From Chthonomonas sp. (GTDB lineage Bacteria; Armatimonadota; Fimbriimonadia; Fimbriimonadales; Fimbriimonadaceae): a DNA stretch of 64,000 bases. Positions 2,945-63,055 of this stretch are shown one piece after another (position 1 is the first letter of the stretch; every line of letters begins with the position of its first letter). The stretch spans positions 126,001 through 190,000 of the forward strand of contig JAEURP010000007.1 in NCBI GenBank assembly GCA_016788585.1. The letters are read 5' to 3'. The translations under genes were made by a program, and so were the position numbers. The notes beneath the pieces are model-generated. The model did not search any database. It saw nothing but the letters and a program-made list of their open reading frames with translations, and had not been told where the DNA came from.

Positions 2945-3556
2945 TCAGCGAGCGTAGAATTCGACGACTTGGGTTACTTTGAAGAACTTGGGAAAGTCCT
3001 CTGGCTCTGGAAGCGCGATGATCTTGCCCGTCATGTTTGGCACGTCGGCCTCGATGTAAGCTGGAACTGCGGCACCTTCGTATGAACTTAGCCGCGCGAT
3101 GTTCTTGCTGCTGTCGCGGTTGCGAACTCCGATCACGTCACCGAGCTTGACTTGGTAGCTCGGGATATTGACCATGTTGCCATTAACCGTGATGTGGCAG
3201 TGGCTCACCATTTGTCGGGCATGGAAAATGCTCTTGGCATATCCGAGGCGGTAAACGATCGTGGCGAGTCGGAACTCAAGCAGGCGAAGGAAGTTCAAAC
3301 CGGTGTTGCCGCGCATGTTGCTGGCGGTTTGGAACGTGCGGTAGAACTGCTTCTCCATCACGTTGTAGTAGCGGCGGATGACCTGCTTGGCCAAAAGCTG
3401 CTCGCCATACTCGCTGCGGCGGATGCGATCCTTGTTGTTCGGGCCGTGCTGACCGGCGGCGTAGGGGCGCTTGTTGCTTGGGCACTTTGCCTTGCCCCAA
3501 ATGTTGAAGCCGACAGTGCGGCAGATGTCTGTTTTTCGTCCTCGATAGGTTGCCAT
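2945..3556 (-). CDS. rpsD: 30S ribosomal protein S4
   Basis: Primary-binding small-subunit protein, 203 residues, the usual length. The N-terminus MATYRGRK is followed by the typical region around CPSNKRPYAAGQHG, and the S4 RNA-binding domain includes the FHARQMVSHCHITVNG stretch near residues 90-110. The start is ATG 3556; a frame extension to GTG 3592 adds 12 residues that do not look like S4. The gene stands alone, away from the usual alpha operon of rpsM, rpsK and rpoA, and has a roughly 100-nt leader. In other bacteria S4 represses its own mRNA, but no recognisable pseudoknot could be identified here. Confidence 0.96.
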   Translation of the reverse strand: MATYRGRKTDICRTVGFNIWGKAKCPSNKRPYAAGQHGPNNKDRIRRSEYGEQLLAKQVIRRYYNVMEKQFYRTFQTASNMRGNTGLNFLRLLEFRLATIVYRLGYAKSIFHARQMVSHCHITVNGNMVNIPSYQVKLGDVIGVRNRDSSKNIARLSSYEGAAVPAYIEADVPNMTGKIIALPEPEDFPKFFKVTQVVEFYAR

Positions 3557-3665: not shown

Positions 3666-3671
3666 ATTATA
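3666..3671 (-). promoter_or_regulatory. Candidate -10 box for rpsD
   Basis: The minus strand reads a perfect TATAAT about 110 nt upstream of the rpsD start. No clear -35 box is visible; that position falls at the edge of the heptamer array. A short palindrome (CGCGCT/AGCGCG, 3647-3659) lies just downstream in the leader. Confidence 0.45.
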
Positions 3672-3683
3672 GCATGGCAGCGG

Positions 3684-3799
3684 GTCTATGGTCTATGGCT
3701 GAGGGCTGAGGGCTGAGGGCTGAGGGCTGAGGGCTGAGGGCTGAGGGGCAACCGGCTCATAGTCCATCAGCCATCGACCATCGACTATCAGCCCTCGAC
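3684..3799. repeat. Inverted arrays of 7-bp repeats
   Basis: The left arm, 3684-3746, is nine 7-bp units in perfect register: two GTCTATG followed by seven identical GCTGAGG. The right arm, 3758-3799, is six units of the same general form on the opposite strand (CATAGTC, CATCAGC, CATCGAC, CATCGAC, TATCAGC, CCTCGAC). The arms are partly complementary and could fold. The array sits in the gap between rpsD and the first PEP-CTERM gene, immediately upstream of the rpsD promoter. A second locus with the same architecture but different units lies near 33.9 kb. Confidence 0.9.
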
Positions 3800-3801
3800 C
3801 C

Positions 3802-3835
3802 AAAAAGAACAGACCCCCAGCCTAGGCTGAGGGCC
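3802..3835 (-). terminator. Intrinsic terminator after first PEP-CTERM gene
   Basis: Read on the minus strand, a stem CCCTCAGC/GCTGGGGG with a CTAG loop is followed by TCTGTTCTTTTT. The core CAGCCTAGGCTG is a perfect 12-bp palindrome. It lies about 25 nt beyond the stop of the upstream gene. Confidence 0.7.
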
Positions 3836-3858: not shown

Positions 3859-4812
3859 TTACTTCTTGTTGCGTCGTCGTCGTGCAAGAGCAGCGAGGCC
3901 GAGGCCGAGAGCGGCCATCGAACCTGGTTCTGGAACAGCTCGGACTCCATAGAAATGGATGTCGTATGCTTCAGTACCGGCTACATATGCACCATTGGCG
4001 ACATTAGCACCGTCCAGTCGAAGCGCATAGGTCCCAGCCGTATTGCTGCTTGTAGCAAGCATGTTGCCATTCGCGAAATACGAGGCTGTCAGCCACTCGC
4101 CTGCCTCAACAACTCCGACATCCGACGCACCAACGTTAGCCGCTGTATTATATCGGCCGACGGCGATGTAATAGGACTGACCAGCAACAAAGTTGTAGCT
4201 GATTGCTGAGTCCGTGGCTGCATCGGTCGTTTCGTCGTTCCACTCAAGAGTGTTACCATTCATGTCGAGAAGGTAAATCTCGGTGTCCATTGAGGGTTCA
4301 AACGTATCGATAACGTGGACGCCAGCACTAACCGTTCCGAGTCCTGTAACAGACACAGCTGATTGTGAGTGGGTCGCCGTATAGGTCAAAGTTGATGTCG
4401 AGGAAACGCCAGTAACTTTGTAGTCGACCGAGTGAGCGGCACCAAAGCTGTACCATTGGTTCATTCGTTGAATGCCGCCGGCTAGTGAGAACATCGACTG
4501 AATGGATGTTGAGCTAGTTGCCGACGTCGTCGTTCGACCAACGAGCGATCCGGTGAAGCCCGCAAGATCAAGCGCCATTCGGTTGCGATAGACGCCCATG
4601 GCCTGCGCGCCAAAGTTCAGCTTGAAGTGGTCGGCAGAGCCAAGGCCTGGGACGGTAAGGCTCGTGCCACTCGTCGTGCCCTGAACCACATCGCCAATAG
4701 CCATGCTGATATTGTTGGGGGTAAGCCACGTGTCGTTCGCCTCAGTCTCAAAGTGACCAAATGAAGCAGCAGGACCAACAGCCAACGCCGAAAGTAATAA
4801 AAGTTTCTTCAT
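3859..4812 (-). CDS. PEP-CTERM sorting-domain protein
   Basis: A secreted protein of 317 residues with a signal peptide (MKKLLLLSALAVGPAASFG). The body resembles a pre-peptidase C-terminal-like beta domain: FETEANDTW near the start, then a segment around DTEIYLLDMNGNTLEWNDE and SYYIAVGRYN. It ends in a PEP-CTERM tail: VPEP, a short hydrophobic helix (MAALGLGLAALA) and RRRRNKK. In known systems such tails are cut by an exosortase at the membrane; no exosortase is in this window. ATG 4812 gives a clean signal peptide with GGGAG upstream, and the longer frame to 4938 covers the promoter. The specific function is unknown. Confidence 0.88.
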   Translation of the reverse strand: MKKLLLLSALAVGPAASFGHFETEANDTWLTPNNISMAIGDVVQGTTSGTSLTVPGLGSADHFKLNFGAQAMGVYRNRMALDLAGFTGSLVGRTTTSATSSTSIQSMFSLAGGIQRMNQWYSFGAAHSVDYKVTGVSSTSTLTYTATHSQSAVSVTGLGTVSAGVHVIDTFEPSMDTEIYLLDMNGNTLEWNDETTDAATDSAISYNFVAGQSYYIAVGRYNTAANVGASDVGVVEAGEWLTASYFANGNMLATSSNTAGTYALRLDGANVANGAYVAGTEAYDIHFYGVRAVPEPGSMAALGLGLAALARRRRNKK

Positions 4813-5866: not shown

Positions 5867-7207
5867 ATGGACGCCGATGCCTTTCACGCGCAAGTAGTGG
5901 ATCAATATTCCCGCCACATCAACCCCGCTTTGGCGAAGCTGATGAATTTTGCCGGCTTCGGCGTCGAGATGCGTGGCGAGGGCTGCTATCTCTACGACCA
6001 CGAGGGCCGCGCTTTTCTTGATTGCCTTGGGTCGTATGGCGTATTTGCCCTCGGCCACCGACATCCAAAGGTCGTCGAGGCCGTGATCGCCCAACTAGGG
6101 CGACTACCGATGTCGGGCAAGGTCTTTTTCAACCCGCGGCAGGCGGAGCTGGCAACGCGCTTGTCCGAAGTCTCACCAAATGGGTTGGAGTTCACCTTCT
6201 TTAGCAACTCCGGTGCAGAATCTGTTGAAGCGGCGCTGAAGTTCGCCAAGGGCGCTACGGGTCGCAGCAAGATCATCGCGACCGAAGGCGGCTACCACGG
6301 CAAGACTATCGGCGGCCTAAGCGTCACCGGCCGCGAGAAATATAGAAAGAAGTTCGGCCCCCTCATGCCCGGCGCGGAGTTCGTTCCGTTCCCGAGTGCC
6401 CCCTCCTCTCCCCTCGCGGGAGAGGAAGTTCGAGGAGTGTTGAGCGACAGTGAGACAAGCTCGAACAGGAGAGGGGTTGCTTGGAGCGAAATTCTCGACG
6501 CCATCGACTCTGACACGGCCGCGGTCATCATCGAAACCGTGCAGGGCGAAGGCGGAATCCACCTCGCCGCGCCGGGTAGTTTGGCCGCGATCCGAGCTCG
6601 AACTAGGGAGGTCGGCGCGCTGATGATCCTGGACGAAGTGCAGACTGGCATGGGCCGCACCGGGCGGCTCTTCGGCTGCGACCACGAGGGCATCGAGCCC
6701 GACATTATGACCCTCGCCAAGGCGCTCGGCGGCGGCGTCATGCCCATCGGTGCGACTCTGTTTACCGAGTCGGTTGGCACCGCGATCTTCGGCGAGAATC
6801 CCTTGATGCACACCTCGACTTTTGGGGGCAATCCGCTCGCTTGCGCGGCCGGAATCGCGACTCTAGACGTAATCCAGGACGAAGGCCTTTGCGAACGCGC
6901 AACGATCATGGGCGATCGCATGATGGCGGGTCTGCGCGACATGCAATCGCGGCATTCTGACCTCGTTTCAGAGGTGCGCGGCATCGGTCTCATGATCGGC
7001 GTCGAGTTCTCGATGGACGAAGTCGGCGAACTCGTCATCGCGCAGATGACCAAGCGCGGCGTGATCGCTGCGTACACCTTGAACAACCCGCGCGTAATCC
7101 GAATCGAGCCGCCACTAATTATCTCAGAGGCGCAGGTCGACGAAGCGGTGCGAGTGTTCGAAGAGGCTGTCGTCGAGACCGGCGAACTGCTGGCCATGCT
7201 CGCGTGA
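5867..7207 (+). CDS. Class-III PLP aminotransferase, putrescine/ornithine type
   Basis: Fold-type I aminotransferase of 446 residues, resembling putrescine aminotransferase (PatA) and acetylornithine aminotransferase. The PLP-phosphate segment NSGAESVEAALKFAK (about 114-128), the cofactor Asp in MILDEVQTGMGRTG (D256) and the Schiff-base lysine in TLAKALGGG (K285) are all present. Residues about 177-204 do not fit the family: they are translated from a GC-rich palindromic repeat inserted in frame (6399-6476), at the point where relatives pass directly from the VPF strand to the next helix. The gene appears leaderless. It overlaps recO as GTGA. Substrate is not certain. Confidence 0.88.
   Translation: MDADAFHAQVVDQYSRHINPALAKLMNFAGFGVEMRGEGCYLYDHEGRAFLDCLGSYGVFALGHRHPKVVEAVIAQLGRLPMSGKVFFNPRQAELATRLSEVSPNGLEFTFFSNSGAESVEAALKFAKGATGRSKIIATEGGYHGKTIGGLSVTGREKYRKKFGPLMPGAEFVPFPSAPSSPLAGEEVRGVLSDSETSSNRRGVAWSEILDAIDSDTAAVIIETVQGEGGIHLAAPGSLAAIRARTREVGALMILDEVQTGMGRTGRLFGCDHEGIEPDIMTLAKALGGGVMPIGATLFTESVGTAIFGENPLMHTSTFGGNPLACAAGIATLDVIQDEGLCERATIMGDRMMAGLRDMQSRHSDLVSEVRGIGLMIGVEFSMDEVGELVIAQMTKRGVIAAYTLNNPRVIRIEPPLIISEAQVDEAVRVFEEAVVETGELLAMLA
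6399..6476 (+). repeat. Palindromic repeat inserted in frame within a coding gene
   Basis: The segment begins CCCCTCCTCTCCCCTCGCGG and ends AGGAGAGGGG. It contains CTCTCCC/GGGAGAG (6406-6412, 6418-6424) and GTTCGAG/CTCGAAC (6428-6434, 6460-6466). It resembles the intergenic CCCCTCCC...GGGAGGGG palindromes at 23.5 and 24.5 kb, but here it is translated as about 28 extra residues (SSPLAGEEVRG and following) inside an aminotransferase. Confidence 0.8.
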
Positions 7208-7938
7208 GCGGCGAGGTTTCGCTCACTGGATTGGTGCTGCGCCGCTGGGATCAGGGCGAAAGCGACCGCCGCCTGAGCGTGCTGACGCGCGAGAAAGGCC
7301 GCATCTTGGTCACGGCGAAGGGCGCGCGCAAGTCCGGCTCGCGCCTGGCTTCTTGCTCTGAGCCGTTGGCCCTTGCTTCTTTTCAAATCGCGAGCGGGAA
7401 GGTCAATAACTTCATCACCCAAGCCCAAACCCACGCCGGCTTTGGCAAACTGCGGTCCGATTACGACCGCCTGATTCTGGGTTTGAGCTTTGCTGAGTTG
7501 GTGTCGGCGGTCGCGCCCCTCGAACACCCGAACCCAGACCTCTTCGACACCGCGATCATTGCTTTAAAGACCATCGAGACCGCCAGCAATCCGCTCGCCG
7601 CCTCGCTCTGGTCGCAACTGATGCTCATGAAGGTCGAAGGGACTTTGCCGAACTGGCTGTCTTGTAGCTCGTCGGGTAAGAAAATGAACGAGGATCCGGC
7701 TTGGCTCTCGCCGACCGCAGGCGGCTACCTCTCGCCAGGCGTCGCCGATGACTACGTGGACCGCTTCTTGGGTAGCTCGGAGGCGTTGATCGCTTTGTCG
7801 AAGCTCGCCGAGTTGGAAGAACCTCCAGCGAACTTAAAGCGAGCGGACGAATGCATGAAGATTCTCGCTCGCTTCTGGGAACACCACGCCGGGCGCGACC
7901 TGCCAGCTACCAAAGCCGTCCTGCAGAGCTTAACCTAA
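7204..7938 (+). CDS. recO: DNA repair protein RecO
   Basis: Recombination mediator of 244 residues that, with RecR, helps load RecA onto SSB-coated single-stranded DNA. The N-terminal OB-fold segment is recognisable (GLVLRRWDQGESDRRLSVLTR, then GRILVTAKGARKSGSRLA). The middle is helical, as in the family. The usual zinc-finger cysteines of the C-terminal half are mostly missing; only WLSCSSSGKK remains there. The GTG start overlaps the aminotransferase stop. The 3' end overlaps the convergent ligD by 9 bp. Confidence 0.9.
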   Translation: MSGEVSLTGLVLRRWDQGESDRRLSVLTREKGRILVTAKGARKSGSRLASCSEPLALASFQIASGKVNNFITQAQTHAGFGKLRSDYDRLILGLSFAELVSAVAPLEHPNPDLFDTAIIALKTIETASNPLAASLWSQLMLMKVEGTLPNWLSCSSSGKKMNEDPAWLSPTAGGYLSPGVADDYVDRFLGSSEALIALSKLAELEEPPANLKRADECMKILARFWEHHAGRDLPATKAVLQSLT

Positions 7939-10308
7939 CTTCTCGACGGCGGCGCGAAGGTCTTGCGGCTCGTCAGCGAAGTCCTTCCACGGGTCCATGC
8001 GCTGGGTTTTCAGCCGTTCCATCGCATTCTTTATCGTGAACACCGCCGCGCCGGGTAAGTCGGAAAGCTCTTCCCAGTGAACTGGGAGCGAAACCGCCGC
8101 CCCATCCCTCGCGCGCGGCGAATACGCGGAAATCGAGGTCGCGCCGCGGCCATTGCGAAGGTAATCGATGAAGACTCGCCCGTCTCGCTTCGCCATTGCG
8201 ATGCTCGATGTGTATTCCTTCGGCGACATGCGCTCCATCATGATCGCGATGCCATGGCAGAACTCCTTGACTTCTTTCCATTCGAGGTCGGGGAGGAGCG
8301 GGATGCACACGTGAAGCCCCTTGCCGCCGGTGGTTTTCACCCAGCTCTTGAGGCCGAGGTGCTCCAAGACAGCCCGAACATTCGCTGCCGCGCGCACGAT
8401 TTCCGTCCAGTCGAGTTCCTTGTCTGGGTCGAGGTCGAACGTGATTCGGTCGGGCCTCTCGATATCGTTGGCTCGGCTCCCCCAAGGGTGAATCTCCATG
8501 ACGCCAAACTGGGCCAAGGCGATCAGACCGGCGACGCCATCCAACCCGATCCCGTAGCCGTCATCAATCGGCACCGGGTGCAGGTCATCTGGCAGCGACT
8601 CGACATAGTTCTTTTGGAAGAACAACTCACCCGCTAGGCCCGAGGGTGCCCGCACGATGCTTAAGGCGCGGCCTTCGAGGTGGGGAAGTAGCCACGGTGA
8701 AACGTCAACCAGATACTCGGCTAGCTGTAGCTTGGTGACACCATCCTTGGGATAGATAACCCGATCGGGATTTGTGACCTTAATCTCGGCGGGAGCCGGC
8801 CTCTCGATCGTGACCTCAGTTGGCTTCTTATCATCTCGAAAACCCTTGAATACGGGGTGTCGCAGCCGACCCTCGGCGGTCCAAGCCGTGAATTCGACTT
8901 CGCAGACCAGTTCAGGCTCAACGTACGTCATGCCCTTCATTTCCTCTTTTGTCATTCCAGGTAGGAAAGGCGAGTCCATTCGCTCATGGGAGAGCAGTTT
9001 CGTTAAAGTCGCGTTGAGCCTCTTTTCGTCGAACCCAGAACCAACACGTCCGGCGAAAACGAGACCTCCGTCTTGATAGAAGCCCACTGCCAATGACCCA
9101 AAGCCCGATCGCGAGCCGCTGGGCTCTGTGTAGCCACCAACGACAAACTCTTGCCGCTGAATCGCCTTGATTTTCACCCAATCGCGGGTACGCGCTTGTC
9201 GGTATTTGGCATCGATCTTCTTGCTGACAATGCCCTCAAGTCCCTGCTCGGCGGCTTGGCGAAAGACCTCGTTGCCATGCCCAAGAATGTGGTCGCTGAA
9301 GCTGATCTCCTGATCCTTCACGAGCTCCTTCAGAAGCGTCTTTCGCTCCAGAAGAGGTCTCTCGGTCAGGTCGTGTCCCTCGAGAAATGTCAGATCGAAC
9401 ACGAAGTACGTGAGCTTGCCTGGGGTGCCCTCGACGTAGTTCTGGAGCGCGCCGAAGTCACTGATGCCTTTTTCATTGAGAATCACGACCTCGCCGTCCA
9501 GGATCGCTTCACCAACTGGGAGTTCTTCGATAGATTTGGCAACTGTCCGAAAAGTCTTCGTGTAATCCACTCCATTTCGAGAGAGGAGCCGAGCTTTGCC
9601 ATCCTTCAAGAATGCGAGGATTCGGTAGCCGTCGAACTTAATTTCGTGGATCCAGTCTTCGCCTTGAGGCGGATCGGTGCCCAGAGTCGCGAGTTGCGGG
9701 CGCATCTCTTTTGGCATTGGCGTAGTCTGTTTCTCTTTCGCGCCGCGCGCGATTTCTTCCATCGTCCGACCGCTCATTACGCTCGTCGTGAATTGCTCGG
9801 GCAAGTCTTCACCGTCCTTTCGAACTGCCGCGTCCTTCTCCTTAAGAAAGAGCCAGGGAATCTGCGTTTCGCCATCCTTCGGCTTCATACGAATCAGCGC
9901 CCATTTGCCCTTCATGCGCTCGCCATGAAAGGTGACCTTCATTTCGCCCTTGGTTAGCTCAGCCTCGGGGTCGGTGTCGCAAGTGAAAGTCCCGCGATCC
10001 CAAAGCATCACAGTTCCGCCGCCGTATTCGGCCTTGGGAATGGTGCCCTCGAAGCCGCCATATTCCAGCGGATGGTCCTCGACCTGAACGGCAAGCCGTT
10101 TGTTGCCTGGATCGAGGCTGGGGCCTTTGGGCATCGCCCAGCTTTTTAGAACGCCGTCGATCTCAAGCCTTAAATCGTAGTGGAGCCGGGTCGCGTCGTG
10201 CTTCTGAATACAAAAAGTGCCATGCGAATCGGAAGGCTCCTCCCCCTCGGGCTCGGAAGTCTTCGTAAAATCGCGCTTGGCTTTGTACTCAGAGAGCTTT
10301 TTTTTCAC
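7930..10308 (-). CDS. ligD: Multifunctional NHEJ DNA ligase LigD
   Basis: A 792-residue ligase with three domains in the order phosphoesterase, ligase, polymerase, as in Pseudomonas LigD. The phosphoesterase part has HYDLRLE (His43). The ATP-dependent ligase has the nucleophile motif EIKFDG (Lys224) and DGEVVILNE. The primase-like polymerase has the metal-binding pair in ITFDLDPD (Asp625, Asp627). It processes and seals double-strand-break ends together with Ku. The start codon overlaps the ku stop as ATGA, so the pair is one transcription unit. Complete, with no missing catalytic motif noticed. Confidence 0.97.
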   Translation of the reverse strand: MKKKLSEYKAKRDFTKTSEPEGEEPSDSHGTFCIQKHDATRLHYDLRLEIDGVLKSWAMPKGPSLDPGNKRLAVQVEDHPLEYGGFEGTIPKAEYGGGTVMLWDRGTFTCDTDPEAELTKGEMKVTFHGERMKGKWALIRMKPKDGETQIPWLFLKEKDAAVRKDGEDLPEQFTTSVMSGRTMEEIARGAKEKQTTPMPKEMRPQLATLGTDPPQGEDWIHEIKFDGYRILAFLKDGKARLLSRNGVDYTKTFRTVAKSIEELPVGEAILDGEVVILNEKGISDFGALQNYVEGTPGKLTYFVFDLTFLEGHDLTERPLLERKTLLKELVKDQEISFSDHILGHGNEVFRQAAEQGLEGIVSKKIDAKYRQARTRDWVKIKAIQRQEFVVGGYTEPSGSRSGFGSLAVGFYQDGGLVFAGRVGSGFDEKRLNATLTKLLSHERMDSPFLPGMTKEEMKGMTYVEPELVCEVEFTAWTAEGRLRHPVFKGFRDDKKPTEVTIERPAPAEIKVTNPDRVIYPKDGVTKLQLAEYLVDVSPWLLPHLEGRALSIVRAPSGLAGELFFQKNYVESLPDDLHPVPIDDGYGIGLDGVAGLIALAQFGVMEIHPWGSRANDIERPDRITFDLDPDKELDWTEIVRAAANVRAVLEHLGLKSWVKTTGGKGLHVCIPLLPDLEWKEVKEFCHGIAIMMERMSPKEYTSSIAMAKRDGRVFIDYLRNGRGATSISAYSPRARDGAAVSLPVHWEELSDLPGAAVFTIKNAMERLKTQRMDPWKDFADEPQDLRAAVEKLG

Positions 10309-24266: not shown

Positions 24267-24470
24267 GCAGAAGAATTGCGTGGAAAACGAAGACATTTCC
24301 CTGCCCGCGCAAAACATTTGCGAGCCCGCGCAAAACATTTGCGAGCACGCAAATTGTTTCCGCGAGCACGGAAAACTCTTGCGCGGGCAGGGAACTTTGT
24401 TGCGCGGGCTGGCAAATGTTCTGCGCGTGCAGGAAAAATTGTTACGCGTGCTGGGAATCCTCTCCGGAAG
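24267..24470. repeat. Array of 20-21-bp palindromic units, copy A
   Basis: The array begins GCAGAAGAATTGCGTG and continues with eight degenerate 20-21-bp units. Several are self-complementary with different but matching stems (TTTGCG...CGCAAA, TTTCCG...CGGAAA). The first unit, TTCCCTGCCCGCGCAA, is the exact reverse complement of the fifth, TTGCGCGGGCAGGGAA, so these can pair around units 2-4. A related copy B lies at 62.9 kb. Open frames rich in RAGK-type codons inside it are repeat artefacts. Confidence 0.85.
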
Positions 24471-62862: not shown

Positions 62863-63055
62863 GCAGAAGAATTGCGTGAAAAACGAAGACATTTCCCTGC
62901 CCGCGCAAGACATTTGCGAGCACGCAAATTGGTTCCGCGGTCACGCAAATTCTTTCCGCGTGCAGGAAAAACTCTTGCGCGGGCAGGGAATTTTGTTTCT
63001 CGGGCTGGCAAATGTTGTGCGCGGGCAGGGAAAAGTGTTACGCAAGCAGGGAGAT
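62863..63055. repeat. Array of 20-21-bp palindromic units, copy B
   Basis: It shares the 5' block GCAGAAGAATTGCGTG...GAAGACATTTCCCTGCCC with copy A at 24.3 kb and then continues with seven or eight variant units. Stems include TTTGCG/CGCAAA and TTTCC/GGAAA, and TTCCCTGCCCGCGCAAG is the exact reverse complement of CTTGCGCGGGCAGGGAA further on. It lies 78 bp upstream of the FN3 gene, in the same orientation relative to that gene as copy A has to its own. The DNA from 63056 to 63215 holds nothing I can identify. Confidence 0.85.

Follow-up and report, generated by a model that had tools for sequence, protein, structure and literature searches.

The 64,000-nucleotide stretch of DNA analysed here (the window) belongs to a MAG of the Fimbriimonadaceae (Armatimonadota; G000) that comprises 2,382,461 bases on 27 contigs and is 95.29% complete. 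Near its beginning, an array of heptamers in two arms sits between the gene of a PEP-CTERM protein and rpsD, both encoded on the minus strand. The region is organised as follows:

2945-3553, minus strand: rpsD, ribosomal protein S4 (Pfam PF00163 and PF01479)
3666-3695, minus strand: promoter-like site of rpsD, composed of TAGACC (3695-3690), 18 bp and TATAAT (3671-3666), with TG before TATAAT
3684-3746, plus strand: first arm, nine 7-bp units in one register, GTCTATG twice and then GCTGAGG seven times (read from sequence and by Tandem Repeats Finder)
3703-3748, plus strand: G-quadruplex motif with seven tracts of GGG (GGGG in the last) separated by 4-base CTGA loops (regular-expression scan)
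3747-3757: spacer of 11 bp between the arms, GGCAACCGGCT (read from sequence)
3758-3799, minus strand: second arm of six units, from outer to inner GTCGAGG, GCTGATA, GTCGATG, GTCGATG, GCTGATG and GACTATG (read from sequence)
3812-3835, minus strand: terminator-like hairpin downstream of the PEP-CTERM gene and distinct from the array
3859-4812, minus strand: gene of a PEP-CTERM sorting-signal protein (Pfam PF07589)

Re-reading of the sequence reproduced to the base the nine units and the six opposite-strand units given in a preliminary description of this DNA. Tandem Repeats Finder reported 26 rows for the window and placed its top score of 102 at 3697-3747, while the more degenerate minus-strand arm scored 32. 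An exact lag-7 run of 44 bases is the longest in the window, compared with a maximum of 11 in 60 windows simulated under an order-3 Markov model. The heptamer arrays beside rpsD are far above chance. Despite its degeneracy the minus-strand arm is real; its strength lies in words that are common to other loci of the genome. The seven identical GCTGAGG units had been attributed to recent slippage, which is a reasonable reading since many other arms are made of mixed words.

Contact of the array with the rpsD promoter region, likewise proposed at the outset, was borne out: the -35-like hexamer TAGACC falls within the first units, 18 bp from TATAAT. The promoter-like pattern had one match against 0.3 expected and marks the sole promoter-like site found for rpsD. 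The G-quadruplex motif is the longest of seven detected in the window by the regular-expression scan. The array supplies a weak -35-like hexamer together with a potential G-quadruplex on the non-coding strand just upstream of rpsD, and may thereby slightly tune S4 transcription as a by-product. A copy-number switch of rpsD is unlikely, because added copies would enter upstream of the -35 box and leave the -35/-10 spacing unaltered. Phase variation of rpsD has in its favour a slippage-prone identical run adjoining the promoter. We nevertheless regard it as very improbable, given that the units lie neither in the -35/-10 spacer nor in a coding frame, that S4 is a housekeeping protein and that both sister genomes described below lack the array. 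The practical importance for rpsD itself is probably small.

Further along the window, positions 6404-6477 contain a hairpin repeat (CCCTCTCC...GGAGAGGGG) some 74 bp long, which recurs at about a dozen places in the genome among the matches listed. It lies within an ORF (5867-7207) that encodes a putative aminotransferase, as judged by eye from the translation. A gene for LigD with primase-polymerase, 3'-phosphoesterase and ligase domains is located at 7930-10308 on the minus strand.

Heptamer arrays across the genome

Scanning of the whole genome with a strict three-unit pattern yielded 65 overlapping matches (44 forward, 21 reverse) and none for the same pattern read backwards. When one mismatch was allowed, 146 matches were obtained compared with 14 in the reversed control. 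The genome contains at least about 19 array loci, which use the same few words (GTCTATG, GTCGATG, GCTGATG, GCTAATG). Locus counts rest on the matches listed and are therefore lower bounds. Among these matches, 12 loci with two arms, six with a single arm and pure (GTCTATG)n runs were distinguished; the further inverted 7-bp arrays that the preliminary description had proposed to look for are present. The pure runs, with which contig C18 opens and C24 closes, may represent one array that the assembler failed to cross.

The family words begin with G, continue with TCT, TCG, CTG or CTA and end with ATG or a near variant. Across 36 arms, some of which are pieces of one array, GCTGATG and GTCTATG each occurred in 17, GCTAATG in 14 and GTCGATG in 11. 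Excluded before these word statistics were the minus-strand arms at L057 and L064, which are phase artefacts in pure (GTCTATG)n, and a chance match (L150:82989). Position 1 of the unit is almost always G and position 5 mostly A, and variation is found mostly at positions 2-4. Most family words contain GG only; tracts of three guanines are reached by the array in the window.

Eighteen of 19 arrays checked were intergenic, a count that includes three arrays overlapping doubtful ORF calls, which were taken as spurious. The remaining array, C4:88353, lies within a convincing ORF. It is a weak match and was dropped from the locus count, and was retained in the word-polarity statistics as one of four C..T arms. 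The genes flanking the arrays occur in every relative orientation. Two of the two-arm arrays, C7:46280 and C11:78021, match at 86% along 72 bp and resemble each other in their spacers, an indication that copying can extend to entire two-arm elements.

Corresponding sites in related genomes

RpsD is 97% identical to its counterpart in the Fimbriimonadaceae MAG SJ800 (G004) and 96% identical to that in SJ46 (G001). Upstream of rpsD, both sisters retain the TGCTATAAT box, and 50-80 bases of unrelated spacer replace the array. No array was seen on reading the rpsD upstream sequences of G002 and G003, and a period scan of this region in 19 named relatives revealed none, the only signal being one weak and unrelated period-7 stretch (L089).

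Nine array sites were compared with the sisters. At seven of them (rpsD, C24:21356, C24:32324, C24:35224, C11:78021, C11:83151 and C16:151667) the heptamer array is absent from both. The array at C6:93412 is also present in SJ800 with point changes and with the word order kept, which could reflect selection. At C16:138305, SJ800 holds a degenerate version next to a convergent pair of octamer arms, and at C11:83151 a convergent octamer pair (GTCGGTGA words) occupies the place of the heptamers in SJ46. The strict heptamer pattern matched once in each sister genome versus 65 times here, while the octamer pattern matched 15 times in SJ46, four times in SJ800 and three times in this genome. Pattern counts and site readings together indicate that word sets differ among close species and that some sites are shared. 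With one genome per species, arrays were present or absent between species, not longer or shorter.

Gene order is kept at six of the nine sites and rearranged at three. C24:35224 and C16:151667 are located at synteny breaks relative to the sisters, and C24:21356 adjoins a tRNA-Met that is inverted relative to both SJ800 and SJ46. This gives a hint, and only a hint, that the arrays are associated with rearrangement junctions, as repeats can mislead MAG assembly. The inverted tRNA-Met (L147 1300-1700, C24) has the heptamer array on one side and a convergent GGTTNGG/CCNAACC stretch on the other.

Dispersed, intergenic arrays that are absent at sister sites might be copies of a small non-autonomous mobile element of MITE- or REP-like type, and C7:46280 and C11:78021 do resemble copies of one unit. 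This origin is doubtful, however. Spacers vary from 0 to about 71 bp without a common sequence, the ends are not fixed, and the empty site corresponding to C11:78021 shows no clear target duplication. RAYT-type genes do exist in this genome, namely two Y1 transposase genes on C6 and C26 (L126 and L127) with their own palindromic repeats flanking them. A RAYT/REP origin of the arrays was rejected: PF01797 was detected in 41 of 61 genomes, this one among them, but both genes here are flanked by these palindromes and not by heptamers.

Arm order, arm independence and word polarity

In all 12 two-arm loci among the matches listed, the G-rich arm comes first (two-sided sign test, 5e-4), an order that reads identically from either strand. 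A two-arm design found in 12 loci in one order is not an accident of a single site. The "defined element" of the preliminary description is not supported in the sense of something fixed: spacer length and sequence vary between loci, and neither arm mirrors its partner. The same order was found in four octamer pairs of the sister genomes, two of them from paired pattern matches (C57:4177/4210 in SJ46, C10:36920/36972 in SJ800) and two read directly. It was also found in both close pairs of G021, whose heptamers are GGCTATC-like, among 20 examined stretches of its contig C1; distant pairs were left out (L268 with opposite order, 558 bp apart, and L271 with the same order, 289 bp apart). G021, a genome of the same family, is very rich in mixed RGMNATC heptamers, with 347 three-unit matches versus 26 in the reversed control.

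Arms paired with their own-locus partners no better than with arms of other loci (p 0.76 for folding, 0.93 for identity). The two arms of a locus are thus not inverted copies of one another, nor do they form a hairpin maintained by pairing. When the array in the window was folded as DNA, a z-score of -1.83 was obtained and nine of 200 shuffles folded equally well. This z-score and the equality of cross-locus pairing ruled out a mirror hairpin as the organising principle. Within the arms, GTC words lie outside and GCT words inside in 17 cases versus four with the reverse arrangement (sign test, 0.007), an excess that was not reached in 20,000 shuffles of words within arms.

Two similar mirror arrays with a period of 21 were observed at 24285-24460 and 62888-63055 of the window. 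They are C-rich first and G-rich second, opposite in order to the heptamer arrays.

The arrays might serve a factor that binds DNA or RNA, or might form a regulatory structure such as a G-quadruplex or hairpin, and be maintained by selection. Unit positions 1 and 5 are far less variable than 2-4, a G-quadruplex motif lies beside the rpsD promoter, one array (C6:93412) is kept in SJ800, and at some sites different species have arrays made of different words. Mixed orientation of the flanking genes, the prevalence of words with GG only, arms that are not matched for pairing with a fold of only z = -1.8, and close relatives without the arrays make this reading unlikely.

Fixed order in all 12 loci listed, in the four octamer pairs and in both close G021 pairs, together with mutually independent arms, word polarity from outside to inside and rearrangements at three of the nine compared sites (C24:35224, C16:151667 and C24:21356), would also fit scars of end repair. 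G/T-rich repeats would have been added to both 3' ends of a chromosome break, perhaps templated by RNA, before the ends were joined, leaving a G-rich arm with a C-rich arm behind it. The genome encodes LigD with a primase-polymerase domain as well as one reverse transcriptase. We consider this course of events improbable: breaks associated with repeats can be MAG assembly errors, six of the nine sites retain gene order, no template RNA was found, and the reverse transcriptase does not track the arrays, which G008, G017 and G050 carry without a match to it. In a more specific, telomerase-like version, G/T-rich repeats particular to each species would be added from a template at both 3' ends of a break before joining. 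This proposal predicts fixed order, independent arms, polarity and rearranged junctions, and we would give it only a small chance of being correct. If it were true, the heptamer and octamer arrays with their convergent arms would be repair scars, and words would differ between species because the template had changed.

A link to reverse transcriptases in general was not convincing. RVT_1 was found in 10 of 61 genomes and array carriers are split: G000, G010 and G021 have a match and G008, G017 and G050 have none, although all six have arrays of some word set. The reverse transcriptase encoded here, of 516 aa, is located on C11 (L189 3512-5062) about 10 kb from the array at C11:83151, and its best PADLOC match is Drt8 (E 2.4e-15).

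Origin of the arrays and comparison with known repeats

The explanation that we favour, and hold to be somewhat probable, is a dispersed, lineage-specific family of intergenic heptamers that arose by repeat addition or copying, followed by slippage, without a dedicated function. Each arm would have formed at an intergenic site separately from its partner arm, through the addition of repeats or as a copy of another array, and replication slippage would later have enlarged certain runs, (GCTGAGG)7 and (GCTAATG)7 among them. The fixed arm order, the words shared by unlinked sites and the arrangement with GTC outside and GCT inside are not predicted by simple slippage and run counter to this explanation. 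Arm order, shared words and word polarity might instead reflect a dedicated process or the binding of a factor. The array at C6:93412 kept in SJ800 and the matching pair C7:46280 and C11:78021 likewise weigh against it.

The STRR heptanucleotides of cyanobacteria are tandem heptamer arrays dispersed in the genome, with motifs other than those found here. In vertebrates, interstitial telomeric sequences are likewise arrays of short repeats that one species has at a given locus and its relatives lack, and empty orthologous sites of this kind were seen in both sisters at seven of the nine sites. The vertebrate sequences are explained by double-strand break repair, and the telomerase in their case is a eukaryotic enzyme. 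Our literature searches on Fimbriimonas tandem repeats, intergenic repeats of Armatimonadetes and convergent heptamers found no account of the present family.

The passages of Rehm et al. (2015, PMC4692102) drawn on here describe GGGAATC heptamers of Xanthomonas as intergenic repeats with convergent site pairs, 70 in Xcc and 75 in Xac, for which no function was found; heptanucleotides of Calothrix are mentioned as well. The present arrays share with these heptamers and with GGGGA(C/T)T of Nostoc the 7-bp unit and a dispersed, mostly intergenic distribution with variable copy number, and their G3N4 layout recurs in the GCTGAGG run. Because the Xanthomonas heptamers also form convergent inverted pairs, the present arrays belong, as far as these passages go, to a known kind of repeat. 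In contrast to the Xanthomonas and Nostoc heptamers, the words are neither GGGAATC nor GGGGA(C/T)T and mostly lack a G3 tract, several words are mixed within an array, each species has its own word set with octamers in the sisters, and the sites are mostly empty in the sisters, whereas genomic locations are described as more conserved in Xanthomonas and Nostoc (PMC4692102).

TAACTGA direct repeats of Beggiatoaceae, Cyanobacteria and Bacteroidetes (MacGregor 2015, PMC4679880) resemble our family in forming intergenic heptamer arrays that are at times split by related 7-mers and are unevenly distributed among genomes. In the sections consulted they differ by a single dominant word, by a position mostly just upstream of start codons and by only one inverted case. 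Neither of these accounts, in the parts used here, describes a mixed word set specific to each species, independent arms or a change from heptamers to octamers between sister species (PMC4692102, PMC4679880).

The same sources indicate that the over-representation of heptamers in bacteria has no settled answer. Slippage set by the footprint of the polymerase has been proposed (PMC4692102, PMC4679880), and Rehm et al. cite a suggestion that heptamers are a favourable unit length for slippage by the polymerase (PMC4692102). To any such explanation the genus examined here adds constraints, namely facing arms with the G-rich arm first that are independent of each other, words that are common within a genome and different between sister species, some sites at which one species has seven-base units and others have eight-base units, and several arrays located at rearrangement junctions.
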